Positions 2,658-20,951 of a stretch of DNA of 64,000 nucleotides are shown one piece after another; the stretch's first letter is position 1; every line of letters starts with the position of its first letter. Source of the DNA: a bacterium (GTDB lineage Bacteria; Actinomycetota; Acidimicrobiia; Acidimicrobiales; Bin134); the NCBI GenBank assembly GCA_026708015.1, contig JAPOVT010000029.1, forward strand, positions 62,001-126,000, read 5' to 3'. A program made the position numbers and the translations under genes. The notes below the pieces were generated by a model that worked only from the letters and a program-made list of their open reading frames with translations, had not been told where the DNA came from and ran no database searches.

Positions 2658-2713
2658 CTGACAACTTGCAGTTGGTTGAGGCCCGGCTGCTCAAAGCCAA
2701 ACCCGAGGGGGTC

Positions 2714-4564
2714 ATGCTCATGAAATCGCGTTGGTTGAAGCTTCTTGCCGTCCTGATGGCGCTGACAGTATTCGCTGTCTCCTGCGGCAACGATGACGAC
2801 GACGGAGTCACCACTGGGGCTGCTACGCCCGCTCCGGCAGAGGAGCCTGGAGAAGAAGCTCCTGCCGAAGAGGCCCCCGCCGAAGAGGCTCCCGCTGAGG
2901 AGGCCCCGGCTGAGCAGGCCCCGGCCGATGAGCCAGAAGATGAGCCGGTGGTGACCATCGAGGAGTCCGAAGAGGTGGAAGAGGAAGAAACAGGTGGAGT
3001 GCCCACCGGCAACACCGGGTACATCCCTGGTGAAATCCTCACCACCGAATGCTCAGACGGGCGGCCGACTGGCGGCAACCTCACTATCGGCATGTTCGGT
3101 GAGATCGTCGGATGGGACCCCACCTTGATCCAGGGCGGGGCCTCGCTGGGTGGCACGCAGATGATCTCCATCTACGGAGCGCTGTTCTACGAGGACTTCG
3201 CCACTGGCCAGCTGATTCCCGGCCTGGCCGAGAGCATCTCCACTGAAGACAATGAGGTGTTCACGCTGAAGCTGCGCGAGGGCGTCAACTTCACCGACGG
3301 CACCCCGTTGGATGTAGACGCACTGATCTGGAACATCGAGCACCACCAGAATCCTGACATCGGGTCGCAGTCGCGGGCTCAGGCCGATCTGATCGCTTCG
3401 TGGGAGAAGATCGACGACTACACCATTGAGCTCACTGCCACCAGCAAGAACGCGGTGTTTGCGCAGATCTTCGCCTCCCGTATGGCGTGGATGATGTCGC
3501 CCACCACGTATCAGGCTGGTCAGGATCCAGAAACCGGCCTCAATTCCGACGTCAACATCAATCCGCAGGGCGTGGGCGCAGGTCCGTTCATGCTTGAGTC
3601 GTGGGTCCAAGACGACCAAGCCGTTGTGGTGCGCAACCCGGATTACTTCCGTGAGGGTTGCCCCTATCTGGACAGCGTGACCTTCAAGCCCATCATCGAG
3701 CCGCCGCAGCGCTACAACGCGTTCAACGCTGGCGATCTCGACATTGGCTACGACCGCCATCCCCAGAACCTCCAAGACGCCATCGCCAAGGGCGTCAACA
3801 CCACCTCCCGAGTCGACAACCACGGCGGATACTGGATGCTCAACAACGTGAAAGAGCCGTTCAACATCCGGGAGTGCCGGGTGGCTGTGGCCCACGCCAT
3901 CGACTACGAAACCATCAACGAGATTGTGTTCGACGGCCTCAACAACATGATCCGCAGTTTGATGAGGCCGGGCTCTCCGTGGACCGATCCCGAAGCAGTG
4001 CTGCCGGGCTTTGACCAGGACGCGTCGGTTGCCGCGCTCGAAGAGTGTGAAGCGCAACTGGGCGGTCCGCTGGAGTTCCAGACCTACTGCACCACCTCAC
4101 CGGAGAACGTGCTCCAAACGGAGACCTTGGTCTCCATGTGGAGCGCGGTTGGCATCTCCGCCACCGCCAACTGCGTGGAGGTCGGCGAGATGGTCGGTGC
4201 CGTGTTCGGCGGCGAATCAGTGGCCAACCCGTGGGCCATCCCCGTGGGCGACCCCGACTACATGTACGACGTGTACTTCGGCGATTCCACCGAGGACGGC
4301 GTGTGCGGTCCCAACGTCTCATCCCGCAACTGGGCCAAGGCGTGCTATCCGGAATTTGACGCCTCGCTCAAGCAGGGCCGTGAAGGCGTCACCTTCGAGG
4401 AGCGCTACGAGGGCTACAGCCGCTTCCAGCGCGAATTCGCCTATCAGGTCCCGGTCATCGTGACTAGCAAGGGCGAGGTCGGCTACTACTGGACCGACGA
4501 GGTTTCGGGCATATTCCAGACCGACGCCGGCATCATTCTCTTGGAATTCACCGCTAAGGGTTAG
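2714..4564 (+). CDS. Peptide/nickel-type ABC transporter substrate-binding lipoprotein (SBP family 5)
   Basis: I chose the ATG at 2714, preceded by GAGGGGG; the frame continues upstream to 2666 without signal-peptide character. A lipoprotein signal peptide ends at 'FAVSC' (Cys24). A long acidic, Ala/Pro-rich tether follows, with repeated EEAPA units (about residues 35-90). The SBP_bac_5 fold begins near 'GGNLTIGMFGEIVGWDPT' and continues through 'TLKLREGVNFTDGTPLDVDALIWNIE', 'NIRECRVAVAHAIDYETIN' and a C-terminal 'EERYEGYSRFQREFAYQVPVIVTSKG'. It would capture an oligopeptide-like or other small solute outside the membrane for the two permeases downstream. The tether and signal start (CGNDDDDGVTTG) are shared with the paralogue at 19043. 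Confidence 0.9.
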   Translation: MLMKSRWLKLLAVLMALTVFAVSCGNDDDDGVTTGAATPAPAEEPGEEAPAEEAPAEEAPAEEAPAEQAPADEPEDEPVVTIEESEEVEEEETGGVPTGNTGYIPGEILTTECSDGRPTGGNLTIGMFGEIVGWDPTLIQGGASLGGTQMISIYGALFYEDFATGQLIPGLAESISTEDNEVFTLKLREGVNFTDGTPLDVDALIWNIEHHQNPDIGSQSRAQADLIASWEKIDDYTIELTATSKNAVFAQIFASRMAWMMSPTTYQAGQDPETGLNSDVNINPQGVGAGPFMLESWVQDDQAVVVRNPDYFREGCPYLDSVTFKPIIEPPQRYNAFNAGDLDIGYDRHPQNLQDAIAKGVNTTSRVDNHGGYWMLNNVKEPFNIRECRVAVAHAIDYETINEIVFDGLNNMIRSLMRPGSPWTDPEAVLPGFDQDASVAALEECEAQLGGPLEFQTYCTTSPENVLQTETLVSMWSAVGISATANCVEVGEMVGAVFGGESVANPWAIPVGDPDYMYDVYFGDSTEDGVCGPNVSSRNWAKACYPEFDASLKQGREGVTFEERYEGYSRFQREFAYQVPVIVTSKGEVGYYWTDEVSGIFQTDAGIILLEFTAKG

Positions 4565-4582
4565 CCAAGAAACTCATCTGAG

Positions 4583-4621
4583 AACGAGGGGGTGGGCACG
4601 GTCCGTGCCCACCCCCTCGTT
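4583..4621 (+). terminator. Long perfect hairpin between lipoprotein and permease genes
   Basis: Two 19-nt perfectly complementary arms (AACGAGGGGGTGGGCACGG and its complement) are separated by a single T, so the tip must open to form a small loop. No U-run follows. The hairpin lies 19 bases after the lipoprotein stop and before the permease pair. It could be an intrinsic-type terminator or an mRNA 3'-stabiliser giving more binding protein than permease, as in many SBP operons. Confidence 0.75.
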
Positions 4622-4676
4622 CTATGGGGCATCATCTATGGGGCCCGCGCTGAGACGTAGGGGGAGGTGACAGCAG

Positions 4677-5630
4677 TTGAAGACCATTGGTCGCACCATC
4701 ATCCGAATCATTCCGGTGCTGATCCTGGTGAGCTTCTTCTCCTCCTTTTATGTGGAGCTGCTGCCCGGTGATCCCACCATTCGACTACTGGGCCAAGAGC
4801 GGGCCCAGGAGCCTGCCGCCCGGGAGTTGGTCAACCGGGAGCTTCGGCTCGATGAAAACGTCATCGTGCGCTACGGCAAGTGGCTGGGGGATGCGCTTAC
4901 CGGTGATTTGGGCGAGTCGGTAAGAACCCATGGCCTGAAAGTTTCCGATACCATTCGACAGCGGCTACCCATCACCCTGGAACTGACAGTGGTGGCCCAG
5001 GCTCTGGCGCTGATTCTGGCTATTCCGCTGGGGGTGTATGCCGCCTATCGGGCGGGACGCAGAGTGGATAGAGCGTTGAACGCGGCATCATTTGCCGCTA
5101 TCTCCTTGCCTCAATTCCTGGTGGGCATCCTTTTGATCTTCATCCTGTTCAATCAGCTCGACCTGTTGCCGCCCCAAGGGTGGACCCGGCTTACTGAATG
5201 GGACTGGTGGGACCATTCCCGCCGCTTGATCATGCCGGTGGTCGCGTTATCTCTGACTGAGATTGCCGTGTTCCAGCGGCTGTTGCGGGCCGACATGATG
5301 GCCACCCTGCAAAACGACTTCGTGCTGACGGCCCGGGCCAAGGGCATGTCGCCCACCCATGTGTTGTTCCGCCATGCCCTGCGACCGTCGTCGTTCTCAC
5401 TCATCACTTTGGCGGGAGTGAGCACGGGCCGGCTCATCGGTGGCACCGTCATCATCGAAGTGCTGTTCCAGCTCCCGGGGATGGGGCTCAAGATGGTCGA
5501 CTCCATTACCGGCAATGACTTGGTCGTGCTGCAAGGTCTGGTGCTGGTGGTGGCGGTGGCCTACATCATGTTGAACATGCTGGTGGAGATCACCTACGCC
5601 CTGCTTGATCCGAGGATTCGACGTGGCTGA
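4677..5630 (+). CDS. ABC transporter permease, DppB/OppB type
   Basis: The start is a TTG with a strong Shine-Dalgarno GGAGGTGA six bases upstream. The first membrane helix (about residues 5-25) leads to 'ELLPGDPTIRLLGQE', the standard DppB N-terminal motif. The binding-protein-dependent transport domain has several TM segments. The EAA loop 'DFVLTARAKGMSPTHVLFRHALRP' would dock an ATPase. The C-terminus 'LLDPRIRRG' is typical. Length (317) is normal. It would form the transmembrane channel with the next gene. No ATPase gene is present in the window. Confidence 0.92.
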   Translation: MKTIGRTIIRIIPVLILVSFFSSFYVELLPGDPTIRLLGQERAQEPAARELVNRELRLDENVIVRYGKWLGDALTGDLGESVRTHGLKVSDTIRQRLPITLELTVVAQALALILAIPLGVYAAYRAGRRVDRALNAASFAAISLPQFLVGILLIFILFNQLDLLPPQGWTRLTEWDWWDHSRRLIMPVVALSLTEIAVFQRLLRADMMATLQNDFVLTARAKGMSPTHVLFRHALRPSSFSLITLAGVSTGRLIGGTVIIEVLFQLPGMGLKMVDSITGNDLVVLQGLVLVVAVAYIMLNMLVEITYALLDPRIRRG

Positions 5631-6690
5631 CATCACTGGCGTCGTCACCGAGCCTGTGGTCCAGGAAGTGGTAGATCCCGAGCGAGGTCGCCGCGCCCGC
5701 CTCGCCAGGGAAGGAAGTGCCCGACTGGTCATCGGGGCGGCCATGCTGCTGGTACAGCTCTTGGTTACCTACGACGGCGCTACCTGGCTTCAGGTAATCC
5801 TCGCGCTGAGCGGGATTTACGGCATCCTCACCGGGGTAGGGCAGCTGATTCGAGCGATTTTTGGATCACGCGTCGACCCGACCGTATGGATATCGATGGC
5901 TTGGCTGTTCATCTTGGTGCTTTTTGTGCTCTTGCAACTGGGCGGACTGTTCAACAGCTTGGAGGCCGACTTCGGGGATCGGGAGCGGCCCCCGTCGTTC
6001 ACCACCGACGAGCCGCTGGGCACCGATCGGTTGGGCAAGAGCGTCATGAACCAGAGCATCCGGGGGGCGAGAATCTCCCTGATCGTGGGCCTGGGCGCAG
6101 TGGGCATCGGCTTGGCGGTGGGGTCGGTTATCGGGATGTCCGCGGGCTACTTCCGAGGGGCAACCGAGGGAACCTTCAACATAATTACCGACGCCGTTTT
6201 GGCCTTCCCCGCCCTGATCTTGCTGTTTTCGATTGTGGCGATCTTCGGGGGCAGCGTTCTGGTGATCACGCTCGCGCTATCGGTATTGAGCATCCCCACT
6301 ATGGGACGACTGTCGCGCGCCAACACATTGACGTTCGCGGCTCGGGAGTTTGTTACCGCGGCCAAGGCCATGGGAGCGTCCAACGGCCGCATTCTGTTCC
6401 GGGAGATCATGCCCAACGTGGCTCTGCCGTTGGCCTCCTACGCCTTCATCGTCGTGGCCGTGGTGATCGTGGCCGAGACTTCGTTGGCCTTCTTGGGGGT
6501 GGGCATCGATCCCATCAGCACGCCCACGTGGGGCAACATGATCCAAGAGGGCCGCGACCCGAATCTGCTGGAAAAGGCGCCCCACATCGTGTTCGTGCCC
6601 GGAGTGATGATGTTCCTCACCGTGCTGTCGCTGAACCGCATCGGAGAATCGCTCCGAGCCCTCTGGGACCCCCGCGAAGCCAAGCTGTAA
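5623..6690 (+). CDS. ABC transporter permease, DppC/OppC type
   Basis: I chose the GTG at 5623, which overlaps the upstream stop by 8 bp; the frame also holds a TTG at 5605. After a non-conserved N-terminus with two or three extra hydrophobic segments (about residues 30-115), the usual DppC core begins: 'EPLGTDRLGKSVMNQSIRGARISLIVG'. It continues with 'FVTAAKAMGASNGRILFREIMPNV' (EAA loop) and ends 'DPREAKL'. At about 355 residues it is longer than classic DppC (about 300) because of the extra N-terminal helices. The second-cassette permease at 22072 has the same design. It pairs with the preceding permease. Confidence 0.92.
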   Translation: MADITGVVTEPVVQEVVDPERGRRARLAREGSARLVIGAAMLLVQLLVTYDGATWLQVILALSGIYGILTGVGQLIRAIFGSRVDPTVWISMAWLFILVLFVLLQLGGLFNSLEADFGDRERPPSFTTDEPLGTDRLGKSVMNQSIRGARISLIVGLGAVGIGLAVGSVIGMSAGYFRGATEGTFNIITDAVLAFPALILLFSIVAIFGGSVLVITLALSVLSIPTMGRLSRANTLTFAAREFVTAAKAMGASNGRILFREIMPNVALPLASYAFIVVAVVIVAETSLAFLGVGIDPISTPTWGNMIQEGRDPNLLEKAPHIVFVPGVMMFLTVLSLNRIGESLRALWDPREAKL

Positions 6691-6775: not shown

Positions 6776-8542
6776 ATGAGCGACGCCATTCGATACGAGG
6801 CCGATGAGCACTGCCCTCCGGGTATTGCGGCCATAGCCGGGCTTCAGGGGGTGGTGCTGGCGCTGGCGCCGATCGTGTCGATTGTGATCGTCACCGCCCG
6901 AGCGGGAGGCCAAGACGCCGGTTACTTCTCATGGGCGCTGTTCGCGGCGCTGATCATTGCTGGCGCGTTAACCGCCTTGCAGGCCACCCGGTTCCAGAGG
7001 TTTGGCGCTGGCCACATCCTGATCATGGGCCCGACCCCGAACTACATCGCCATCTCGGTGTTGGCGCTGGCCGAAGGCGGTCCGGAGTTGCTGGCCAGCC
7101 TCACCGTGGTGGCTTCGGTGTTCTATCTCGTGCTGGCCTTTTGGCTGCCGTTCTTGCGCCGCGTTGTCACCCCGGTGGTCACCGGCACGGTGCTGATGCT
7201 GATCGCCGCCACCATCTTGCCGGTGGCGCTGGATCGATTGGACGACATTCCCTCCGATGCGCCTGAAGCCGCCGGGCCGACGATCGCCTTGGTGACGCTG
7301 GTGGTTTCCACCCTGCTCTTCTTGCGGGCTTCAGGAGTGTGGCGGTTGTGGTCGCCCCTCATCGGGATCGTCATCGGCAGCGTGGTCGCCGCGCTGTTCG
7401 GTGCTTATGAGATCAGTTCGGTGGCCGATGCGGCCTGGGTGGGGATTCCCGAAGGAAGCGGATTCCCCGGGTTCGACCTCACCCCGGGAGCGAGCTTCTG
7501 GTCGCTTCTGCCCGCGTTTGTGGTGGTGGTGCTGGCCGGCGGGGTCAAGAATGTCAGCGACAGCGTCGCCATCCAGCAGGTCTCGTGGCGCCGGCCCCGG
7601 GTTCCCGACTTCCGGCTGGTTCAGGGCTCGCTCAACACCAACGGGCTCGGCATCCTGGCCGCCGGCATTTTCGGGACTCCCCCCAACTCTGTCTATTCGG
7701 GAACCAGCGTGTCGCTCATCGGCTTTACCGGCGTGGCCGCTCGCCGCATCGGCTATGTAATCGGCGGCACCCTGTTGACGCTGGCCTTTCTACCCAAGCT
7801 GACCGCGTTCTTGCTCACCCTTCCCAGTCCGGTCATGGTCGCCTACATCCTGACGGCCATCGCCCTGCTCTTCGTGAGCGGTGTCCGCACCGTCGTGCAG
7901 GACGGACTGGATGCCCAAAAGGCCCTGGTGGTGGGACTGTCGTTCTCGCTGGGCATAGGAATCGACAACCAGACCATCTTCGCCGACCTGCTGGGCCACA
8001 AGTGGGGCCTGCTGCTCGACAATGGCATGCTCGTCGGAGCGCTGGCGGCGGTGTTGATGACCGTGTTCTTGGACCTGACCAGCCCTCAGCGGCGCAGCCG
8101 CTTGGAGGTCGAGCTCAGCGTGTCGTCTCTGCCGGAGATTGATCGGTTCCTGCAAGGAATAGCTGTTCAGAACCAATGGGACGAGGCTTCCACCCAGAGG
8201 CTGTGCTCAGCCGGCGAAGAGGCATTGCTGAGCTTGGTGCTACCCGATGAGACCGGAGAGGAACTGATCGTGAGCCTTGTCGAGGTTGATCAGCCCTATG
8301 AAGATCAACCTCGTCTCATCATCCAAGCCCGCCCCGAAGCCGGCATGGTGGAGATGGAGTTCCTCGCGGTGATCGACGCAGAGAATCTCGAGGACCGCTT
8401 GGCGTCATTGAGCGAGGAGGCCGAGGGTGCGAAGGAAGGCGAGATATCGCTTCGCCTGCTTCGGCACTACGCCTCATCCGTCCACCATCAGAAATACCAC
8501 GGTTTAGATATCGTTACAGTGCAGGTCAGAGGCTCTGCCTAG
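6776..8542 (+). CDS. NCS2/NAT-family-like permease with a C-terminal HATPase-like domain
   Basis: Residues 1-440 are hydrophobic with about 12-14 predicted TM segments and resemble uracil/xanthine permeases ('GAGHILIMGPTPNYIAISVLALAEGG', 'GIFGTPPNSVYSGTSVSLIGFTGVAARR'). The NAT signature is altered: the usual E/Q-N-x-G position after 'YS' reads GTSVS, and the TM8 acidic motif reads 'NVSDSVAIQQ'. Residues about 445-588 are soluble and match the RsbW/HATPase_c_2 layout: an opening helix, 'AGEEALLSLV' (N-box-like) and a final 'ISLRLLRHYASSVHH' stretch. The key Asn and Gly residues look degraded. The stop lies 19 bp before the PKS start, so co-transcription is likely. Substrate unknown. Confidence 0.7.
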   Translation: MSDAIRYEADEHCPPGIAAIAGLQGVVLALAPIVSIVIVTARAGGQDAGYFSWALFAALIIAGALTALQATRFQRFGAGHILIMGPTPNYIAISVLALAEGGPELLASLTVVASVFYLVLAFWLPFLRRVVTPVVTGTVLMLIAATILPVALDRLDDIPSDAPEAAGPTIALVTLVVSTLLFLRASGVWRLWSPLIGIVIGSVVAALFGAYEISSVADAAWVGIPEGSGFPGFDLTPGASFWSLLPAFVVVVLAGGVKNVSDSVAIQQVSWRRPRVPDFRLVQGSLNTNGLGILAAGIFGTPPNSVYSGTSVSLIGFTGVAARRIGYVIGGTLLTLAFLPKLTAFLLTLPSPVMVAYILTAIALLFVSGVRTVVQDGLDAQKALVVGLSFSLGIGIDNQTIFADLLGHKWGLLLDNGMLVGALAAVLMTVFLDLTSPQRRSRLEVELSVSSLPEIDRFLQGIAVQNQWDEASTQRLCSAGEEALLSLVLPDETGEELIVSLVEVDQPYEDQPRLIIQARPEAGMVEMEFLAVIDAENLEDRLASLSEEAEGAKEGEISLRLLRHYASSVHHQKYHGLDIVTVQVRGSA

Positions 8543-8561
8543 TCTTGTCAAAGGAGAATGC

Positions 8562-11500
8562 ATGACTTCTCATTCAGGGGAATCGATCGCGGTTGTCGGA
8601 ATGGCGTGCCGCTTTCCTCAGGCCGACGACCTGTCGGCGTTTTGGCGTCTGCTGGAAACAGGCACGAATGCGGTCATCGAAGGCGTGCCCGGCTCCGGGG
8701 TCGGACGGGTGGGCGAGTTGTTCTCCGAAATGCCGGAGAAGGAAGCCTGCCGGTTCGGTGCCTACCTCGACCAGATCGACGAATTTGACGCCGAGTTCTT
8801 CCGCATCTCGCCCACAGAGGCTCAGATGCTCGACCCGCAGCAGCGGCTCATGCTGGAGACGAGCTGGCAGGCCCTCGAAGACGCCGGGATCGATCCCGAC
8901 GGGCTGAAGGGCAGCCGAACCGGTGTCTATGCCGGGATCAGCTCCAATGACTACCGCCATCTGATCCTGGTCACCAGCGGGACTTCTGAGCCGGCCCCCA
9001 GTCTCTATGCGGTGACTGGCACGTCCTATAGCACGGCCATCGGCCGGGTTGCCTTCGCGCTGGGCCTGGAAGGACCGGCGATGGCAGTGGACACCGCCTG
9101 TTCCTCCTCCCTGGTGGCCGTCCATCAAGCCGCAGCTGGCTTGCGACAGGGCGAAGCCGACTTGGCGTTGGTCGGCGGAGTACACGCCATGGCCTCGGGG
9201 CGGATGATCGAGCTTCGGGCCAACGCCGGGATGCTGGCGCCCGATGGGCAGTGCAAAGCATTCGATGCCTCGGCCAACGGTTATGTGAGGGGCGAAGGAT
9301 GCGGGATGGTGGTCCTCAAGCGGCTCAGCGATGCAGAGGCCGACGGCGACCGCATTTGGGGAGTGGTCCTCGGCTCCGCGGTCAACCAGGACGGGGCGAG
9401 CTCCGGCTTGACGGTGCCGATGGAGACAGCCCAGCAGCAGGCCATTGAAGAGGCATTGCACAATGCCGGGGTTGTCCCCGCCGATATCGACTATCTGGAG
9501 GCTCACGGGACGGGCACTCCAGTGGGCGACCCGATCGAGGTCAATGCCGCGGCCGCGGCTTATCGCCAAGGCCGCGATGAGGCGAATCCCCTGCTGATTG
9601 GCTCGGTGAAGACCAACATCGGCCACTTGGAAGCGGCTGCCGGTGTCGCTGGCCTGATCAAGACTGTGCTGGCCATGAACCGGGGCACCATTCCCCGGCA
9701 CCTGAATCTCCGGGAACTGAATCCGAAGATTGACTGGGAGCAGTTTCCTGTTCAGGTGGCCACTGAGATGACCGAGTGGCCTTCGAACCAGGGCCGACCG
9801 CCCCGAGCGGGGGTGAACTCGTTCGGCTTCTCCGGCACCAACGCCCACGTCGTGCTGGAGGGGTACCCCGATTCCGGCGGGCAGTCAGTACCGGTTGGCC
9901 CTTCACGTCCCATTGTGGTGTCGAGTCTTGGCGACTCCGATCGGCCCGCCGAGATGGAAGCTCGCCTGGCCCGGCTTCTGCCCCTGTCGGGAAAGTCGCC
10001 TGTGGCCCTTCAAGAACTGGCCGAGCGGCACATGTCGTGGCTCGACGAGCAGGCGGAAGAGCTTGCCGTGGACAACTCGGCGGCCGTACCGGTGCTTTCC
10101 GACATGGCTTGGACCGCGGGAGTGGGTCGTAGCCATCAGGCCTATCGGGCCGGAGTTGTGTTCCGGGACGCCGAGTCGCTTCGCGAGAAGCTCAGTGCGC
10201 TCTTGGAGGGAGAAACCGAGTTGCAAAGGTCCCAGACCGCCCCGAAAGTGGCCTTCGCGTACACCGGTCAGGGCAGCCAGTGGATTGGCATGGGCCAGGC
10301 GCTCTACGACCGCGAGCCGGTGGTGCGAGAAGTATTGGATCGCTGCGACCGGGCGATGCGCGAACTGCGGGGCACATCGCTGCTAGCGGTGATGTTCGGG
10401 GCGCCCGACGCCGAGGGTGACCTGGACGATCCGGCGTGGACGCAACCCGCCATCTACGCGCTGGAGTGCGCGCTCACCGAGTTGTGGGCGAGCTTGGGAG
10501 TTGGGCCCGATGTAGTGGTTGGACACAGCCTCGGGGAGATCGCCGCGTCCCGGACTGCCGGTGTGTTCAGCCTGGAAGACGGTTTGCGTTTCGCGGCCGG
10601 GCGAGGCGCGCTCATGGCCGAGCTGCCCGAACCCGGGGCCATGGCCGGAGTGTTCGCCCCACCATCTGAGGTCGCGGCCTCTATAGAGGAGCAGAGGGCG
10701 GCATCGGGTGACCCCCGACTGGCAATCGCGGCCGACAACGGTGCCCACCAGATGATCAGCGGGCCGACCACCGATGTGGAGGCGGTGTTGCAGCGGTTCG
10801 AGGCGGAGGAGGTTCGAATCCGCCGATTGGAAAAGAGCGCCGGATACCACAGCGCCATGGTCGACCCCATCTTGGACGGTGTGGAGGCCCTACTGGCCGA
10901 ATTGGAAGTCGGGTCGCCGTCGTTGGCCTTTGTCAGCAGCATGCTGGGCCGCGCCCTGGTGCCGGGCGAAGAGCTCGACAGCTCCTATTGGCGCCGTCAG
11001 GCCCGTCAGGCGGTGGAGTTCCGAAGCTGCGTCGAGACCTTGGCCACAGAAGGCGTGCAGGTTGTCATCGAGGTTGGTCCGGGCGCGGTGCTCGGGCCCA
11101 TGACCGCCTTGGCTTGGCCGGAGCAAGCGGGCAGCGCTCCCGCGCCGGTTGTGGTGTCGAGCATGAAGCGGCCTTCCACCCGGACCCCGGAGCCCGACGA
11201 CCGCTGTGGATTTATGGACGCCGTGGCGGGGGCGTATCAGGCGGGGCTCGATATCTCTTACGACGGGTTGTTCGCCGGCGAAGAGCGCCGTCGGGTTTCC
11301 CTGCCCAGCTACCCGTTCCAGCGCCAGCGCTACTGGGTTGAAGGAACAAGACGCCGTCGGCAGAGCAGTGGCCATCCGCTGCTGGGCGTTCGCCACGACT
11401 CTCCCCGGGGCGAGTCGCTGTTCGAGACCGAGATGTTCGCCTCTGATCCAGCCTGGCTGGCGGACCACCGGGTATTCGACCGGGTGGTGATGCCGGGGGC

Positions 11501-14500
11501 GCTTTATGGCGCTATGGCCGCATCGGCGCAGCTGAGCGATGGATCCCAATCGGTCACCGTGGAGGACTGGCAGCTTTACAGCCCGCTGATTTTCTCGGAA
11601 GAGGAGTCGGAGGATGGCGGAGGCCGCAGCGTGCAACTCGTGTTGGAAGATGCCAAGGGCGCGGTGTCGCGGGGCTTTGAGATCTTCAGCAAAGCGCCCA
11701 CCGAGGAGAAATGGACGCTCCATGCTCAAGGTCAGGTGTCGCCGGGCGTTCGCCTGCATGAGGCCCCAGAGCCGGTAGATCTCAACGCCCTGAAGGCAGG
11801 TTTGACCCGAGGGGATGTTTCCGCGTTCTACCAGGCCAAGGCTGAGTCGGCGATCGACTTCGGCCCGTCTTTCCGCACCCTTCAATCGATTTGGCTGGAG
11901 GCGGGCGAGGCGGTGGGCGAAGTGGTCTTGCCTCCAACCGTGGACCACGGCGGGTTAGACGTGCATCCGATCTTGCTCGACGGCTGCTTCCAAGTCATGT
12001 CGGCGGCCCGCAGTCTGTCCGGCGCCGAGGGCGGTGCCACCTACATGCCGTTCGGGTGCGAGCGCTTTTGGCTTTCTGGCCCGCTGCCCGAGCGACTGGT
12101 CTGCCATGTCCGCATGAGGGACGCAGTTCAGGACCGGGCATCGGAGCGCGAGCCCGATGAGTCGCCGGAAGTCCTCACCGGCGACATTCACCTCTATGAC
12201 CCCGACGGCATACCGCTGGGCGGGTTGAGCGGCTACACGGTGAAGCGGGCCACCCGGACGGCGCTGCTTTCCGCGGTGGAGGGCCTGGAAGATCTGCTGT
12301 ACGAGGTGGTTTGGCGGGATGCAGATCTGGCCGAAGATCCAGCCGATGTCACCGAGCCTCCTGGCGCCTGGCTAGTGGCCGCCGACCAGAGAGGCGTCGC
12401 CGAAGAACTGGCTGCGGAGTTGGCGGAGCGCAATCAGACCGTGGTGGTGGCCTCCCACGGCGAGGCAGGCGATGGCATCGCGCCGACGGAGGGTGGAGTT
12501 CATCGCTGGACCGCGGACGTGCGAGACCGGGAGTCATGGCGATCGCTCATTGCGGTCCTTCCCGAAGACGTGCCGCTGAGGGGCGTCGTTCACCTTGCCG
12601 CTCTCGACGGCCACGGGCACCAGGCATCTACCGAGGATCTCGCTGAAGATGTGCGGAGTGCGGGGGCCAGCGCGCTGGCATTGACTCAGGGTCTGATCGA
12701 CGCCGGAGTCGAGCCCACCCATGGGCTGTGGTTGGTCACCAAGGGAGCTCAGGTGCTGGGTTGCGAGTTGGTCGGTGAGTTGGCGGGTGCGACGTTGTGG
12801 GGCATGGGCAAATCCCTCGCCCGGGAAGCGGCGCACCTCAAGACAAGGATGGTCGATCTCGACCCCGAGGGCGAAGAGCCGGTGTCTGATTTGGTTGCGG
12901 AGCTGTTCTCCAACGACGGGGAAACCCACATAGCGCACCGTGCTGGCAGCCGCAGGGTCGCCCGTTTGATTCATAGCGGTGCTGAGACCGTCCGAATGGC
13001 CTTGCCCGAAGAGCCCGGTTGGCGACTGGCGCCAGATCCTGGGGGGTCGATAGAGAGGCTGGCAGCCGAGCCGCTGCCACCGCTTCCGCTGGCTTCGGGT
13101 GAAGTTCGGGTCGGCATCGAGGCCGCTGGCCTCAACTTCCGAGATGTGCTGGTCAGCATGGGAATGCTGGGCGACAACTCTCTTCTCGGCCGCGAGATGT
13201 GCGGCGTAGTCCTCGAGGTGGCCTCGGATGTGACCGCCGTCTCGGTGGGCGACCGGGTGGTGGGGTTGGGATTCGGGACCTTCGCGCCGGAAACTGTGAC
13301 CCGGGCGGAGCTGGTGGCACCGGCGCCCCCGGGCATTCCGGCACCCACCCTCGCCACGGTGCCTCTGGCCTTCACCACTGCGGCGATCGCCTTCGAGCTA
13401 GCCGGCTTGAAGGCCGGCGACCGGGTGCTGGTCCATGCCGGTACCGGCGGTGTGGGATTGGCGGCAATCCAGCTTGCTCAAGCCGCTGGCGCCGAGGTGT
13501 TCGCCACCGCCAGCACCCCGAAGCAGGCGTACCTCCGGTCGTTGGGCGTGGCCCATGTGTTCGACAGCCGCCAGACCGCCTTCGGCGACGAGATCACCGA
13601 GGCCACCGGGGGCGAGGGCGTTCATGTAGTGCTGAACAGCCTGACCGGGGAGGGCTTCATCGAGGCCAGCCTCTCCTGTTTGGCCGATGGCGGACGCTTT
13701 GTGGAACTCGGCCGGCGGGGCATTTGGAGCCAAGCCGAGATGTCCGAGGCCCGTCCCGATGTCGAGTACTCCATTTTGGAGTTGGACGTTTTGAAGGTTG
13801 AAGATCCGGATCGCGTCGGGGCGTCTCTCAGCAGCGTGATGGAGCAACTGGCAGCCGGAGAGCTGAAACCGCTGGTCCATCGCTTCTGGCCGCTGGCTGA
13901 GGTCAGCGCCGCAATGGAGTACATGCAGTCGGCCCGCCACATCGGCAAGAACGTCCTCGTCATGCCCCCGCTGGCCGTCGGCCGATTGCGGGATGATCGT
14001 ACCTATCTGGTTACCGGCGGTCTGGGCGGGATCGGCTGCGAGGTGGCCGAGTGGCTTGTAGACCAGGGAGCAACCGCAATCGTGCTAAATGGGCGACGGC
14101 CTCCCGACAATGCCGCCCAGGCAGTGATCAGCGGGCTGCGGGAGCGGGGAGCGGTAGTGCAGGTGGAGCTGGCCGACGTCACCGACCCCTCGGCCGTGGA
14201 TCAGATGCTGAGCCGAATTGACGATTCGATGCCTCCGCTGGGCGGTGTGATCCACAGCGTTGGCGTTCTGTCGGACGGCTCGCTGTCCAACTTGAGCTGG
14301 GCTCGGTTCGAGCAGGTTCTGGGGCCGAAAGTGCTGGGGGCCTGGCATCTGCATAGCGCCACCAAGGATCGCGACTTGGATCTGTTCCTCCTCTTCTCCA
14401 GCATTACCAGTGTCCTGGGCAAAGCCGGTCAGGCGAACCATTCGGCCGCCAACGCGTTCTTGGATCAGCTTGCCGCCCATCGGCGGGCCCAAGGGCTCTC

Positions 14501-16958
14501 CGGGCAGTCCATCGCTTGGGGCGCATGGTCGGAACTGGGCGAAGCCGAAGAGCAGCGGGACCGTATCTCAAGACAGCTAGCCGCTTCGGGGACGGGCTGG
14601 ATCACTCCCCAGCAGGGTATGAAGGCCTTGGACCGCTTGGTACGCCAGGATGCGGTGGCCACCATGGTGGGGCTGGTCGACTGGCCGGTGTTCACCGAGG
14701 GTCTCGACAGCCGACTGGCGTTCTTCGAAGAGCTGCTGTCGGCCGACACCGGGGAGGCGGCTGACGAGGCGGAAATGTCGGGTGATCTGCTCTCCCAACT
14801 GGGGGAGGCGGCCGCGGAAGAACGCGAGGCCCTGCTGACCGCGTTCTTGCAGCAGGAGTTGCAGGCGGTGATGAAGCTCTCAACACCACCCTCGCCCACC
14901 GCAGATTTTTCCGATCTCGGGATGGACTCCCTCATTGCGGTGGAGTTGCGGAACCGCCTTAACCGTGCCTTCGCCGGGGAGTACATGGCATCGAACACGG
15001 TGGTGTTCGACTATCCCGATGTCTCCAGCCTCGCTCGCCACCTCGCAGGCGACCTCGATCAGGTCATCGGGGCCGAGGCAAAGCCCGAGCCTGTCCCCCA
15101 GCCCCGCCCGCGAGCCCGCCAGCGGGGCCAAGACGGGATTGCCATTGTGGGCATGGCGTGTCGGTTCCCCGGTGCAGAAGATCTCTCGGCCTATTGGCGG
15201 CTGCTGGAAGCCGGTGAGAACGCGGTAACCGACGGTCGCCAAGACGAGGGTTCTTGGAGCGGGGTTGCCGGCGATCCCTCAGCGGTTGACGTCACGCATC
15301 GGCGGGGAGCGTTCGTCGAGGGGATTGATCGGTTTGACTCCAGCTTCTTCCGCATCTCCCCGATTCAGGCTCGAATGATGGACCCGGTACAGCGCATGCT
15401 GCTGGAGACCAGCTGGCATGCCTTGGAGGACGCGGGAATGGATCCAGCCCAGCTGAAGGGCTCCAGAACCGGGGTGTTTGCCGGAGTGGGCGACAGCGAA
15501 TACCGCCGGGTGATTGCAGCCAGCGGCCGGGAAGACACCACGTTCGGCACCGTGGGGAGCGTGGCGGTGGGACGGGTGGCATTTGTGTTGGGTCTGGAAG
15601 GCCCGGCTATGCCATTGAACCTGGCCTGCGCGTCGTCGTTGGCCGCGGTACACCAAGCGGTCGCCGCATTTCGAAACGATGAGATCGATCTAGCCCTCGT
15701 GGGGGCGGCCAACGCAGTCTTGTCCCCAGCGATGACACGATTCCTCGACGAACACGGACTGCTCTCGCCCGACGGTCAATGCAAGGCCTTCGACGCCTCG
15801 GCCGATGGCTATGTGCGGGGCGAGGGCTGCGGGATGGTGGTCCTGAAGCGGCTGGGTGATGCCGAGGCCGATGGCGACCGGATCTGGGGCGTGGTGCTGG
15901 GTTCGGCTGTCAACCAAAACGGAGCGAGCCTGGATCTCATCCTGCCCAATGGGCGAGCCCAGCAGCAGGTAATCCAAAAGGCGTTGGAGCGGGCTGGCGT
16001 GGAACCATCCGAGGTGGACTACATGGAAGCCCATGGACTGGGAACGATGGTGGGTGACCCTGCTGAAGTGGACGCCGCTGGCACCGTGTACGGGCAAGGG
16101 CGCGATGGGGATCGCCCTCTGTTGATTGGCTCAGTGAAGACCAACATCGGCCACCTGGAATTTGCGTCGGGGATTGCCAGCCTCATCAAGACCGTGCTGG
16201 CCATGAGGAGGCGGTTGATTCCCCGACAATTGCATTTCGAGAATCCCAATCCGCAGATCGACTGGGATCGGCTGCCGGTACAAGTGACCACTGCCCCCAC
16301 GGAGTGGCCTCTCGAACCAGACCGACCCCCGATTGCTGCGGTCCACTCGCTGGGGATTTCGGGCACGAACGCGCACGTTGTCTTGGAGGGTTACCCATCC
16401 CCTCACAGCGAGGACGGGCTCGAGGGGGTTCCCTGGCCAATGGGTGCCCCACGGGCAGTGGGAGATGACACAGAGGTTGAAGAGGGAGAGGAAGGGCGGC
16501 GAGCACGGTTGCTGCCGTTGTCGGGCAAATCTGACGGGGCAGTCCGAGATATGGCTAGAGGGTATCTGCGTTGGCTCGACGACCACGCCGACCTGCTCTC
16601 GTCGGAAGATTCCGCCGACTCGCTGCTATCGGACATGGCGTGGACGGCGAGCATTGGTCGCAGCCACTTCTCCTATCGCACCAGCGTTGTGTTTCGCGAC
16701 GAGGAGTCTTTGCGGGCCGGGCTTCGGGCGGTTGTGGACCACGACCACGAGTTCAGCCCATGCGAAGAAGGGGGAGTGCTGTCGACCGATGGCTTCGATC
16801 CTGGCGATGACGGCTCGGTGAAGGCGGTCGGCGCGGCCTATGAAGCCGGCCAAACTGTCGATTTCGAGTATCTCTTCAGCGGAGAGAGGCGCCGGCGGCT
16901 GTCGCTGCCCAGCTATCCGTTCCAGCGCCGGCGCCACTGGGTCCAGCCGCGCAAATAG
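8562..16958 (+). CDS. Type I highly reducing polyketide synthase, KS-AT-DH-ER-KR-ACP-KS
   Basis: ATG at 8562 follows AAAGGAGA. Domains in order (2798 residues): KS1 about 7-430 (active Cys180 in DTACSSS, 'EAHGTGT', 'KTNIGHLE'); AT about 555-870 (GHSLGE, Ser656; the usual HAFH specificity motif reads AGYH); DH about 925-1230 (His969 in a H-x3-D-x4-P variant, Asp1140); structural KR about 1245-1480; ER about 1490-1800 (HAGTGGVG near 1625); KR about 1808-2000 (TGGLGGIG near 1818; catalytic Tyr position is His in 'GQANHSAAN'); ACP about 2090-2160 (GMDSL); KS2 about 2190-2615 (Cys2356 in LACASSL, 'EAHGLGT'). The last 180 residues are KS-AT and post-AT linkers with no AT between them. There is no loading domain, methyltransferase or thioesterase. 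It would extend and reduce an acyl chain; the product is unknown. Confidence 0.93.
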   Translation: MTSHSGESIAVVGMACRFPQADDLSAFWRLLETGTNAVIEGVPGSGVGRVGELFSEMPEKEACRFGAYLDQIDEFDAEFFRISPTEAQMLDPQQRLMLETSWQALEDAGIDPDGLKGSRTGVYAGISSNDYRHLILVTSGTSEPAPSLYAVTGTSYSTAIGRVAFALGLEGPAMAVDTACSSSLVAVHQAAAGLRQGEADLALVGGVHAMASGRMIELRANAGMLAPDGQCKAFDASANGYVRGEGCGMVVLKRLSDAEADGDRIWGVVLGSAVNQDGASSGLTVPMETAQQQAIEEALHNAGVVPADIDYLEAHGTGTPVGDPIEVNAAAAAYRQGRDEANPLLIGSVKTNIGHLEAAAGVAGLIKTVLAMNRGTIPRHLNLRELNPKIDWEQFPVQVATEMTEWPSNQGRPPRAGVNSFGFSGTNAHVVLEGYPDSGGQSVPVGPSRPIVVSSLGDSDRPAEMEARLARLLPLSGKSPVALQELAERHMSWLDEQAEELAVDNSAAVPVLSDMAWTAGVGRSHQAYRAGVVFRDAESLREKLSALLEGETELQRSQTAPKVAFAYTGQGSQWIGMGQALYDREPVVREVLDRCDRAMRELRGTSLLAVMFGAPDAEGDLDDPAWTQPAIYALECALTELWASLGVGPDVVVGHSLGEIAASRTAGVFSLEDGLRFAAGRGALMAELPEPGAMAGVFAPPSEVAASIEEQRAASGDPRLAIAADNGAHQMISGPTTDVEAVLQRFEAEEVRIRRLEKSAGYHSAMVDPILDGVEALLAELEVGSPSLAFVSSMLGRALVPGEELDSSYWRRQARQAVEFRSCVETLATEGVQVVIEVGPGAVLGPMTALAWPEQAGSAPAPVVVSSMKRPSTRTPEPDDRCGFMDAVAGAYQAGLDISYDGLFAGEERRRVSLPSYPFQRQRYWVEGTRRRRQSSGHPLLGVRHDSPRGESLFETEMFASDPAWLADHRVFDRVVMPGALYGAMAASAQLSDGSQSVTVEDWQLYSPLIFSEEESEDGGGRSVQLVLEDAKGAVSRGFEIFSKAPTEEKWTLHAQGQVSPGVRLHEAPEPVDLNALKAGLTRGDVSAFYQAKAESAIDFGPSFRTLQSIWLEAGEAVGEVVLPPTVDHGGLDVHPILLDGCFQVMSAARSLSGAEGGATYMPFGCERFWLSGPLPERLVCHVRMRDAVQDRASEREPDESPEVLTGDIHLYDPDGIPLGGLSGYTVKRATRTALLSAVEGLEDLLYEVVWRDADLAEDPADVTEPPGAWLVAADQRGVAEELAAELAERNQTVVVASHGEAGDGIAPTEGGVHRWTADVRDRESWRSLIAVLPEDVPLRGVVHLAALDGHGHQASTEDLAEDVRSAGASALALTQGLIDAGVEPTHGLWLVTKGAQVLGCELVGELAGATLWGMGKSLAREAAHLKTRMVDLDPEGEEPVSDLVAELFSNDGETHIAHRAGSRRVARLIHSGAETVRMALPEEPGWRLAPDPGGSIERLAAEPLPPLPLASGEVRVGIEAAGLNFRDVLVSMGMLGDNSLLGREMCGVVLEVASDVTAVSVGDRVVGLGFGTFAPETVTRAELVAPAPPGIPAPTLATVPLAFTTAAIAFELAGLKAGDRVLVHAGTGGVGLAAIQLAQAAGAEVFATASTPKQAYLRSLGVAHVFDSRQTAFGDEITEATGGEGVHVVLNSLTGEGFIEASLSCLADGGRFVELGRRGIWSQAEMSEARPDVEYSILELDVLKVEDPDRVGASLSSVMEQLAAGELKPLVHRFWPLAEVSAAMEYMQSARHIGKNVLVMPPLAVGRLRDDRTYLVTGGLGGIGCEVAEWLVDQGATAIVLNGRRPPDNAAQAVISGLRERGAVVQVELADVTDPSAVDQMLSRIDDSMPPLGGVIHSVGVLSDGSLSNLSWARFEQVLGPKVLGAWHLHSATKDRDLDLFLLFSSITSVLGKAGQANHSAANAFLDQLAAHRRAQGLSGQSIAWGAWSELGEAEEQRDRISRQLAASGTGWITPQQGMKALDRLVRQDAVATMVGLVDWPVFTEGLDSRLAFFEELLSADTGEAADEAEMSGDLLSQLGEAAAEEREALLTAFLQQELQAVMKLSTPPSPTADFSDLGMDSLIAVELRNRLNRAFAGEYMASNTVVFDYPDVSSLARHLAGDLDQVIGAEAKPEPVPQPRPRARQRGQDGIAIVGMACRFPGAEDLSAYWRLLEAGENAVTDGRQDEGSWSGVAGDPSAVDVTHRRGAFVEGIDRFDSSFFRISPIQARMMDPVQRMLLETSWHALEDAGMDPAQLKGSRTGVFAGVGDSEYRRVIAASGREDTTFGTVGSVAVGRVAFVLGLEGPAMPLNLACASSLAAVHQAVAAFRNDEIDLALVGAANAVLSPAMTRFLDEHGLLSPDGQCKAFDASADGYVRGEGCGMVVLKRLGDAEADGDRIWGVVLGSAVNQNGASLDLILPNGRAQQQVIQKALERAGVEPSEVDYMEAHGLGTMVGDPAEVDAAGTVYGQGRDGDRPLLIGSVKTNIGHLEFASGIASLIKTVLAMRRRLIPRQLHFENPNPQIDWDRLPVQVTTAPTEWPLEPDRPPIAAVHSLGISGTNAHVVLEGYPSPHSEDGLEGVPWPMGAPRAVGDDTEVEEGEEGRRARLLPLSGKSDGAVRDMARGYLRWLDDHADLLSSEDSADSLLSDMAWTASIGRSHFSYRTSVVFRDEESLRAGLRAVVDHDHEFSPCEEGGVLSTDGFDPGDDGSVKAVGAAYEAGQTVDFEYLFSGERRRRLSLPSYPFQRRRHWVQPRK

Positions 16959-17053: not shown

Positions 17054-17299
17054 ATGTCCTCTGTTCTTGACCGCATTACCCAGCTCATCGACGAGAATCT
17101 GGAAGTTGATGGGCAACCGCTCGGCCGTCCCCTGGACATAGACATCAACATCGCTGATGCCGGCGTTCCCTCTGGCGACATCGTGGCTTTTTGGAAGCTC
17201 GTCAATGAAGAGTTTGGCATCGAGATCTCTGGTGAAGACTTTGCTGAGCTTCTCACCGTGCGCAGCTTGATCGAATACCTCGAAACCCACGCTGGTTGA
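17054..17299 (+). CDS. Free-standing acyl carrier protein
   Basis: About 81 residues from the ATG at 17054, which is preceded by the purine-rich GGAGAGCGAGAGA; an ATG at 17039 is also in frame. The fold matches ACPs: a helix 'SSVLDRITQLIDENL', the loop with the phosphopantetheine Ser in 'DAGVPSGDIVAFWKLVNEEF', then 'GIEISGEDFAELLTVRSLIEYLE'. The usual D-S-L around the modified Ser reads P-S-G, which is unusual. It follows the PKS by 95 bp, and its stop overlaps the PPTase start. It probably carries the substrate or product of the ACP-less terminal KS. Confidence 0.82.
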   Translation: MSSVLDRITQLIDENLEVDGQPLGRPLDIDINIADAGVPSGDIVAFWKLVNEEFGIEISGEDFAELLTVRSLIEYLETHAG

Positions 17300-18027
17300 A
17301 AATTCTGTCCTCAAGGGCTTCTTCTGCCGCTGAAAATTGGTGGTGCCCATTCAGGGATGTCGGCGACATCGCCATTCTCCACGTTGACTTGAGACCCAAT
17401 GCCGACCACGAGGCCAAGGCTTTTGCGTGGCTTGACGGGGAAGAGCGCTCGCGTTGGCAGCGCTTTCAGTCCCCAGTTGCTCAACGGCGCTATGTGCTGT
17501 GCCGCGCCGCGCTCCGGGCCGTCTTGTGCCGCGAGGTCGGCTGCCCAAACGAGTCGTTGGCCTTCGAGGCCGCCAAGCACGGCAAGCCCTTTGCCCTGGT
17601 AGGCGGCCAGCCCGCCTCCATCAGCTTCAACGTGAGCCACAGCGGCAACCACGGTTTGATCGCCGTGGCGCTCAGGGGTCGCCTGGGAGTGGACGTTGAG
17701 GAGCGGGCCCCGCGCCGCAATCTCGACAACCTCATCGAAGGCGTGTTCAGCCCGCAAGAAAAGGCCGAGCTGGAGTCGCTCGAGGGTTGTCAGCAGCTTC
17801 ATGCCTTCTTCCGATTCTGGACCATCAAAGAGGCGCTGGTGAAAGCCCATGGCAAGGGCCTCTCCATGAAGGTCGCAGAATTGGAGATTCCCGAAGACAT
17901 GCGCCGCGGGGCCCCCAGGTGCGTTGGCCAGTTTGCTCAAATCCCCGGGTCGTCCTGGTGTTTGGAAGATATCGGAACCAAGGATTTTGCCGCTGCCGTC
18001 GCTCATGAACTAAGCCCGTCATCGTGA
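17296..18027 (+). CDS. 4'-Phosphopantetheinyl transferase, Sfp type
   Basis: The TTG start overlaps the ACP stop (TTGA). At 243 residues it is normal for Sfp-type enzymes. Motifs are complete: 'FNVSHSGNHGLIAVA' (111-125), 'GVDVEE' (131-136, Mg-binding Asp and Glu) and 'FFRFWTIKEALVKAHGKGL' (171-189, W-x-x-K-E-A). It transfers phosphopantetheine from CoA to a carrier-protein Ser, here presumably both the ACP in the synthase and the free ACP. Its position inside the operon supports a dedicated role. Confidence 0.92.
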   Translation: MKILSSRASSAAENWWCPFRDVGDIAILHVDLRPNADHEAKAFAWLDGEERSRWQRFQSPVAQRRYVLCRAALRAVLCREVGCPNESLAFEAAKHGKPFALVGGQPASISFNVSHSGNHGLIAVALRGRLGVDVEERAPRRNLDNLIEGVFSPQEKAELESLEGCQQLHAFFRFWTIKEALVKAHGKGLSMKVAELEIPEDMRRGAPRCVGQFAQIPGSSWCLEDIGTKDFAAAVAHELSPSS

Positions 18028-18929
18028 CGGAGCAAGAAGCCGCCTGGAGCGTTCCCGAACCGCGGTCGGTTCACGAAGTCCAAGTGGGCTCCGAGTCGTC
18101 GATTCTGCTTCGTCGCCATGGCAACCCCGATGGGACTCGGTTGATTCTCAGCCACGGCAATGGTCTGGCCATCGACTTCTACTATCCGTTTTGGTCGCTC
18201 CTGACCCAAGACTTCGATCTCATCGTCTACGACTTGAGAAACCATGGTTGGAATGCGGTGGGCGATCTGGAAAACCACAGTGTGCCCACCCTGGTCGCCG
18301 ACCATGACCGCATACTTGGGGAGATCGACGAGCATTTCGGCCCAAAACCACAGGTTGGCGTATTCCACTCGGTGTCGACGCTCACACCCCTCATATCTGA
18401 ATCCAAGGGCAGCCAGTATTCGGCGCTTGTCCTGTTTGACCCTCCCATATGCAAACCAGGGAGGAGTTACTTAGATTTCGAAGAGGCGGCTGTTCGCATG
18501 TCGAAATCAGCCAGCCGTCGCACATTTCAATTCAAGTCGAAGAGCTCGTTCACTGACCTGTATCGCGTCTTTCCGACCTTCAAGTCGGCAGTGCCTGGAG
18601 TGGTCGACCTACTGGCCGACACTACGCTCCGAGAATCCGCAGACGGCGAGGGGCTTGAGCTGCGGTGCCCCCGCGAATACGAGGCCCAGATAATTGCCTA
18701 CGCCAGCGTCTACGGAGTGTTCATCGACTTCTCCAAGATCCGCTGCCCGGTCAAAGTGCTCGGGGCTGATCCCACGGTGCCCTCGTCATATCTGCCGTCG
18801 TTGAACCTCAGCGACATCTCCAGCGTCGACTACGACTTCCTGCCTGAATCCACTCACTTCCTCCAGTTAGAGCACCCCGAAGAGTGCGTCGCAATCATGC
18901 GCGAGTTCATTGAAGAGGTTCTCGACTAG
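18024..18929 (+). CDS. Alpha/beta-hydrolase, putative release or editing enzyme of the PKS cluster
   Basis: The GTG start overlaps the PPTase stop by 4 bp (GTGA). The fold is recognisable: 'LILSHGNGLAIDFYYPFW' (oxyanion HG), 'DFDLIVYDLRNHGW', a nucleophile strand 'VGVFHSVSTLT', an acid strand 'VKVLGADPTVP' and a late His in 'LPESTHFLQLEHPEE'. The nucleophile elbow reads F-H-S-V-S rather than G-x-S-x-G, so catalysis may be altered. With no thioesterase in the synthase, this is the natural candidate for chain release. That role is inference from position. Confidence 0.7.
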   Translation: MTEQEAAWSVPEPRSVHEVQVGSESSILLRRHGNPDGTRLILSHGNGLAIDFYYPFWSLLTQDFDLIVYDLRNHGWNAVGDLENHSVPTLVADHDRILGEIDEHFGPKPQVGVFHSVSTLTPLISESKGSQYSALVLFDPPICKPGRSYLDFEEAAVRMSKSASRRTFQFKSKSSFTDLYRVFPTFKSAVPGVVDLLADTTLRESADGEGLELRCPREYEAQIIAYASVYGVFIDFSKIRCPVKVLGADPTVPSSYLPSLNLSDISSVDYDFLPESTHFLQLEHPEECVAIMREFIEEVLD

Positions 18930-20899: not shown

Positions 20900-20951
20900 C
20901 TCGAACAACGACTACTTGGAGTCAATAGGGCTCTAGGGGAGGAAGAGCACC

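Follow-up and report, generated by a model that had tools for sequence, protein, structure and literature searches.

The gene at positions 6776-8542 (+ strand; ATG start, 588 aa) of the window, which is the whole stretch of 64,000 nucleotides analysed here, appears to encode an NCS2 carrier of the UraA fold, with a changed substrate site, that bears a cytoplasmic tail of the RsbW/SpoIIAB fold devoid of nucleotide motifs. The reading we favour, tentatively and as something a little short of probable, is that of an NCS2-type carrier with a protein-docking or regulatory tail, a mirror of the SLC26-STAS carriers, whose work would be tied to a polyketide synthase (PKS) in the branch of the family with a lysine at position 258 (Lys258). 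The tail would be a docking and regulatory module, playing for an NCS2 carrier the role that STAS plays for SLC26/SulP, and the Lys258 branch, the window gene included, would move a probably anionic precursor, or report its supply, beside the synthase. This reading is supported by the RsbW fold predicted for the tail, its conserved residues, the nearness of the PKS, the fab-type neighbours of other copies, and the analogy with SLC26-STAS. From these we infer the docking, its partner (a STAS protein, an ACP or the PKS), the anionic substrate and the direction of transport. The placement of the fusion beside a fatty-acid-like PKS suggests an unrecognised tie between transport and lipid synthesis.

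The fusion gene and its family

The NCS2 membrane core (Xan_ur_permease/UraA fold) spans approximately residues 17-433 (6824-8074, + strand), as defined by Pfam and by profile matches to UapA and UraA. It is followed C-terminally by a soluble tail of about 145 residues (~440-588; the domain at 440-588 corresponds to 8093-8539, + strand), in agreement with the roughly 140 soluble residues described in the initial annotation. The RsbW/SpoIIAB fold and the lost nucleotide motifs of this tail are documented by a structural model, Foldseek, VIA-align, and the Pfam matches of its relatives.

The fusion is not a chance ORF, since 22 of 99 genomes, its own included, hold a relative of it, in 21 cases over nearly the whole length. 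Among these relatives are, by record title, Acidimicrobiia MAGs, Candidatus Poriferisocius and Sva0996, and most of the genomes holding them presumably derive from sponges. A one-off frame fusion or an assembly error was also considered, and is ruled out by the whole-length relatives across many genomes, among them the chromosome records OX638350 and OX638344.

The search for other NCS2-HATPase-type fusions that the initial annotation had proposed was productive. Across samples of two phyla, a tail profile detected fusions in 30 of 395 genomes of the class and in 21 of 201 from Chloroflexota, with up to 6 tail-profile matches per genome; a search of 296 genomes of the window's own phylum with the single tail sequence found 2, one of them in the window genome itself. 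The tail is nearly always found in a long frame: 74 of the 80 matches in the class sample lie in frames of at least 531 aa, the exceptions being one frame of 384 aa (G016) and fragments in G526, G537 (twice), G591 and G631, and 88 of the 92 matches in the Chloroflexota sample lie in frames of at least 522 aa, the others measuring 77, 166, 195 and 510 aa. Seen from the side of the carrier, 46 of 50 Xan_ur_permease matches in 14 hand-chosen fusion-bearing genomes fall in frames of at least 573 aa, and 4 in frames of at most 467 aa, the fused type being judged here by frame length. The window genome has two Xan_ur_permease genes, both of them fused. Judging from these sequences, the fusion is a stable family under constraint, and no description of an NCS2-HATPase fusion was found in the open-licence literature.

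Tandem pairs of fusion copies are present in 10 of the 21 relatives' loci, where the second copy is 63-66% identical to the window protein. Broken copies also occur. The fusion of locus L036 is broken, but the coverage of its contig is only 4.4. Another broken fusion gene, at 8002-9084 of locus L040, belongs to a genome without the PKS, and its tail resembles by eye that of the relatives' second tandem copy. Loss of the PKS is not consistently accompanied by decay of the fusion, as both L040 and L030 lack the PKS and the gene is broken in the former and intact in the latter.

The membrane core, the tail and their altered sites

The permease-like nature of the membrane part is confirmed by Pfam, with residues 19-396 matching PF00860 (Xan_ur_permease) at E 8.7e-35 (120.6 bits, with the cut-off at 27). 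The xanthine-permease and NCS2 models of NCBIfam match the protein strongly, yet under their curated cut-offs (TIGR00801, ncs2, gives 150.4 bits, below 291.8), and the UapA and UraA structures are matched by the core profile. From what is known of the family, we take the carrier to have 14 helices.

Two places of the putative substrate site differ from those of characterised carriers. In TM8, Lys258 (codon 7547-7549, + strand) aligns in the profile alignment to the Glu of the UapA stretch ACECIGD, which we take to be Glu356. Across 117 distinct fusions, residue 258 is Lys in 80, Glu in 26, Gln in 6, Arg in 4, and Asn in 1. In TM10, the region aligned onto the NAT motif (residues 306-319; 7691-7732, + strand) reads SVYSGTSVSLIGFTG and has no Glu/Gln-Asn pair, so the NAT signature is indeed broken, as had been proposed from the letters of the window. 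None of the 117 fusions, the window protein included, has Glu or Gln at the aligned place 309; Glu appears one position earlier in 2 of them, and Gln one position later in 1. The non-fused NCS2 protein L232, the only one of four fetched control loci to exceed the profile threshold and be compared, retains the TM8 Glu and YSENTGVLAVTK. According to the sequence alignments, the substrate site of the NCS2 core is altered, with the TM8 Glu changed to Lys and the NAT motif gone, and the charge switch at position 258 would point to an anionic substrate. A quick tree with a midpoint root, read without regard to support values, separates the Gln-type and Glu-type fusions from the Lys majority. The single Asn258 type is that of locus L010, whose gene is also that of L026, and the PKS of this locus cannot be judged because the contig ends after the second fusion copy.

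The tail had been described as having the layout of the HATPase_c_2/RsbW-type proteins. This description holds for the family and for the predicted fold, but not for the window tail scanned alone, which has no Pfam or NCBIfam match up to E 5. Of 44 tails scanned singly, the window's among them, 18 weakly match HATPase_c_2 (PF13581), with a best value of 4e-4, which makes it the commonest weak match; the next family has 6 members and a best value of 0.058. In a more diverse set, 7 of 32 tails match it. The three PF13581 scores printed range from 14.1 to 14.4 bits, under the Pfam gathering score of 27.4. Compared HMM to HMM with 22 soluble RsbW-type proteins, the tail alignments reached probabilities of 10.3% (alignment A1), 3.0% (the more diverse alignment A4), and 9.0% (117 tails), with P values of 0.003-0.015 (0.003 for A1). 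The score of the 117-tail alignment exceeds those of all 100 column shuffles, and the HMM-HMM alignment, weak as it is, extends over most of the tail and keeps the expected register. Against PDB sequences, the tail-alignment profile retrieved nothing but a chance GAL4 match at 0.47.

An AlphaFold2 model of the tail, built on an alignment of 27 sequences, reached a pLDDT of 73 and a pTM of 0.71, with residues 57-76 and 114-119 under pLDDT 50 and the lid region of low confidence; the whole-protein model was poor (pLDDT 45) and was left out of the fold search. Foldseek of the tail model against the PDB gave 19 matches with E of at most 0.001 (3.9e-7 to 5.8e-4), all of them anti-sigma entries, namely UsfX, SpoIIAB, RsbW, and the complex of sigF with an anti-sigma factor 8jzt, the best one being the usfx-RsfB entry 8ih8 (E 3.9e-7). 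VIA-align superposed the model on RsbW 6m37_C with a Z of 15.0 (2.7 A over 112), on UsfX 8ih8_C with 14.9 (2.4 A over 113), and on SpoIIAB with 13.2-13.5, followed by LvrC (10.3), SiaB (10.0), and the best histidine kinases (6.7). Since RsbW, UsfX and SpoIIAB score Z 13-15 and histidine kinases no more than 6.7, the modelled tail is of the anti-sigma subfamily, a more specific assignment than GHKL. A tail unrelated to HATPase, the result that the initial annotation had named as its refutation, is rejected on the strength of the HATPase_c_2 matches of the relatives together with the fold search.

Even though the earlier term kinase-like fits the fold, it is unlikely to fit the function, since the family as a whole has lost the nucleotide-binding motifs. 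As located by sequence alignment, the N-box has degenerated to EEALLS (residues 481-486; 8216-8233, + strand), with Ser486 at the Asn place; the G1 box is replaced by a conserved ENLEDR motif (residues 536-541; 8381-8398, + strand), and the G2 box by the conserved stretch ISLRLLRHYASSVHHQKYH (residues 557-575; 8444-8500, + strand). In the family consensus, the G1 glycines give way to E-N-[LI]-E-D-R and the G2 box to S-[LF]-R-L-L-R-H-Y-A. We counted residues over the 117 full-length fusions, all distinct and the window protein among them, and over the 55 clusters that they form at 80% identity. The N-box Asn place is occupied by Ser in 74, Thr in 26, Ile in 10, Val in 4, and Asn, Ala and Gly in 1 each, with no Asn in any of the 55 cluster representatives. 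With 116 of 117 fusions lacking the N-box Asn and other conserved motifs standing in for both glycine boxes, the tail is probably no working kinase, as far as its motifs tell. Meanwhile, Glu481, Glu482, Asn537, Leu562 and His571 are invariant in all 55 representatives, and Asp540 (52), Ser558 (53) and Arg560 (52) nearly so. A site that has lost its function and still keeps other polar residues fixed suggests that a new function has arisen there.

Polyketide and fatty-acid genes next to the fusion

The fusion gene is followed by a type I PKS (8562-16958, + strand) of the layout KS-AT-DH-ER-KR-ACP-KS without a methyltransferase, as read from Pfam and synteny. The 19 bp that the initial annotation had counted between the two genes (8543-8561, + strand) are correct, as the PKS starts with an ATG at 8562, and they contain a Shine-Dalgarno-like AAAGGAG. 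Further downstream, on the same strand, are a 4'-phosphopantetheinyl transferase (PPTase; 17296-18027; Pfam ACPS, 7.4e-19) and an alpha/beta hydrolase identified by Pfam (18024-18929).

The link with the PKS, also claimed earlier, recurs well beyond the window. Among the 21 relatives' loci, the last fusion copy is immediately followed by a PKS in 14, and a homologue of the hydrolase stands between both genes in two more (L033 and L034). The other five comprise two contig edges, two loci without PKS (L030 and L040), and L036, where the broken fusion is accompanied by a reversed PKS-like fragment, 51% identical. The KS-AT part was then searched, at a threshold of 1e-50, in 40 fusion-bearing genomes (all 21 of the Chloroflexota sample and 19 hand-chosen ones), and 35 of them contain a match. 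Of these, 28 have a fusion copy no more than 4.2 kb from a match, with the fusion upstream on the same strand in 11 and on the opposite strand in 17. Six have no near copy, with distances of 20.9 kb in G526 and 53 kb in G765 and the genes on different contigs in the other 4, where nearness is not decidable. The remaining genome (G516) has a chimeric ORF in place of a near fusion copy. In this ORF of 991 aa (7789-10764 of locus L180, contig C92), the KS-AT part of the PKS runs on into the final helices and the pseudo-RsbW tail of the fusion, which looks like a deletion or a misassembly.

The chance of such nearness is about 0.03 per genome by a rough estimate assuming 4 copies, 3.3 Mb and a 10-kb locus, and the cases are not independent because the genomes are related. 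Genomes with the link come from Chloroflexota as well as from the genus of the window and a further family within its order. Lys258 is present in all 30 near-PKS fusion proteins read from the 28 genomes, including two cut short by a locus edge; the Glu-type and Gln-type copies are not those near the PKS.

Other features of the locus are less regular. Among the 21 relatives' loci, the dipeptide-type ABC genes located 5' of the fusion do not form a constant feature. In the window, peptide-type ABC sets (SBP_bac_5 plus two permeases) flank the PKS region on both sides (2666-6690 and 19043-23133), and in L030 and L040, which have no PKS, the ABC sets lie close to each other on either side of the fusion gene and the PPTase. 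The PKS of L022 and L148 has a methyltransferase domain between DH and ER that the window PKS, with a frame about 400 aa shorter, does not; lacking that domain, the window PKS may make an unbranched product.

The window genome carries a second fusion, on contig C18, which is of the Glu type and is followed by a carboxylesterase. It lies about 0.25 kb from divergent fabD-, fabG-, acp- and fabF-type genes (8216-14613 of locus L165), of which fabD, acp and fabF were typed by Pfam and fabG is our own label. The same arrangement is found in G007 (L057 and L237), and fabD lies at an equal distance in G006 (L058), at 4.8 kb in G014 (L238), and at 7.3 kb in G013 (L240); in G019 and G012 (L239 and L241) the locus starts too close to the contig edge to judge. 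No fabD match is present at the Glu-type loci L157, L167, L171, L177 and L236. The recurrent neighbours other than the PKS, which are a DUF1330 protein, esterases, and SulP-STAS carriers, are patchy. A gene of 95-96 aa adjoins the fusion in five fetched stretches without PKS (L153, L155, L164, L176 and L179), and the one scanned contains DUF1330.

Alternative readings and comparison with known systems

Several observations count against a docking carrier: 6 of the 35 PKS-bearing genomes are without a near copy and one is chimeric, L030 keeps an intact gene without the PKS, there is no constant STAS neighbour, the Glu- and Gln-type copies are not near the PKS, the sequence similarity to RsbW is weak (3-10% in the HMM-HMM comparison), and the whole-protein AF2 model is poor.

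The alternative that survives best, unlikely as we hold it, is a membrane-tethered partner switch, in which the nucleotide-free anti-sigma tail would bind either a STAS anti-anti-sigma protein or a sigma factor, to be released by the NCS2 core acting as the sensor. The tail fold, far closer to anti-sigma factors than to histidine kinases, favours this reading. The window genome also has the corresponding gene pairs, with a STAS gene directly adjoining an RsbW-type gene on contig C3 and a similar pair about 1.3 kb apart on C61, together with a lone STAS match at C3:191776 that has no adjacent PF13581 match. However, a STAS gene is not a constant neighbour of the fusions in any consistent way across 21 genomes, and the ATP motifs are gone from the tail, even though SpoIIAB-type action normally requires ATP. 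STAS matches within 3 kb of a fusion occur in 3 of the 21 genomes, in frames of 540-594 aa, one verified as SulP-STAS. Two genomes have such a combination: a carrier gene with Sulfate_transp and STAS by Pfam (12101-13762 of L172) and a carrier-type gene with a STAS match only (5193-6926 of L166), each close to an NCS2-pseudo-RsbW gene, so that both halves of a partner-switch pair sit there on carriers of one fold. A published neighbourhood adds to the case, since the swf cluster has the anti-anti-sigma genes ORF18 and ORF15 near the SupE-like ORF17 (PMC3908369).

Returning to the docking carrier, a STAS protein is an attractive partner because of the RsbW-RsbV analogy and the swf neighbourhood just mentioned, and an ACP or the PKS because ACP-bearing synthases adjoin the fusion and because of the analogy with YchM. 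A bolder special case of this general reading, rather unlikely in its full form, is that the tail descends from an anti-sigma kinase and serves as a docking domain for an ACP or the PKS, and that the Glu-to-Lys carrier moves an anionic precursor. The precursor would be bicarbonate or a short carboxylate, whose supply would be tied to the adjacent fatty-acid or polyketide synthase, and contact would be made through the conserved basic stretch SLRLLRHYASSVHHQKYH.

A purely structural tail, which would aid the assembly or stability of the carrier dimer and have no partner of its own, seems to us quite unlikely. RsbW-type domains form dimers. SLC23 carriers are dimeric as well (PMC6497670), which speaks for such a role; however, the strong conservation of Asn537, Asp540, Arg560 and His571 at the lost nucleotide site suggests a working surface. 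Export of the PKS product, or self-protection against it, would account for the genomic link of the fusion with the PKS, but it is improbable: to our knowledge, no NCS2 member moves lipids, the copies found near the PKS are not its Glu- and Gln-type homologues, and L030 keeps the gene without it. Still less probable is an ordinary nucleobase permease placed beside the PKS by coincidence, as the Pfam family match would allow, considering that both substrate-contact places are changed, the tail is a fixed part of the protein, and the PKS link recurs in actinobacterial and Chloroflexota genomes. Finally, an active HATPase kinase fused to a permease is rejected as hardly conceivable, its RsbW-like predicted fold notwithstanding, with the N-box Asn in 1 of 117 fusions and the glycine boxes absent.

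The closest published parallel comes from a sponge metagenome. Table 1 of PMC3908369, from 2013, lists ORF17 of fosmid pPS11G3, from Plakortis simplex, as a 557-aa 'Permease' whose closest homologue is SupE (ABE03914; 44% identity); as described there, it sits 5' of swfA, a small type I PKS. The gene that follows ORF17 (ORF18) is an 'anti-anti-sigma regulatory factor', as is ORF15, two genes before it. The main text of that paper contains neither 'ATPase' nor 'xanthine', and names ORF17 just 'permease'. A length of 557 aa is enough for an NCS2 core plus tail. Because this SupE-like permease adjoins a sponge-symbiont PKS, the window gene is probably of the SupE type, the two being likened by the table description, length and PKS setting, not by sequence. 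The window PKS shares with the sup cluster the trait of a permease-adjacent type I PKS, and by this genomic setting it looks Sup-like; a methyltransferase domain, presumably also a sup trait, is absent from it and present in the PKS of L022 and L148. Sup enzymes dominate sponge PKS amplicons and have been proposed as makers of branched fatty acids (PMC4245539). The Lys branch offers a concrete protein for asking how a Sup-like PKS is supplied or controlled.

With the NCS2/SLC23 carriers UraA, UapA and PbuX, the window protein shares the core, according to Pfam and the profile alignment; it differs from them in the TM8 Lys in place of Glu, the lost NAT motif, and the extra C-terminal domain. 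With the anti-sigma kinases RsbW, SpoIIAB and UsfX, its tail shares a predicted fold (Z 13-15 over 100-115 residues), whereas it lacks the nucleotide motifs, is fused to a carrier, and has no constant STAS neighbour. The family could serve as a test case for dead anti-sigma domains as docking modules on carriers.

The most instructive comparison is with SLC26/SulP. In the account given in PMC6497670, SLC4 and SLC23 carriers are without a C-terminal domain, whereas SLC26 carriers of all kingdoms have a STAS tail that mediates protein-protein contacts, and PMC3340395 describes a complex of the STAS domain of E. coli YchM with ACP. These carriers combine, according to PMC6497670, a 7+7 inverted-repeat membrane fold with a cytoplasmic C-terminal domain from the partner-switch world, and the window protein would do likewise. 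Its C-terminus has no Pfam match to STAS; instead, the tail has the predicted fold of RsbW, the partner of STAS, and the core is NCS2. What the fusion would represent is an NCS2 carrier that bears the natural partner fold of STAS, both active sites having been rebuilt.
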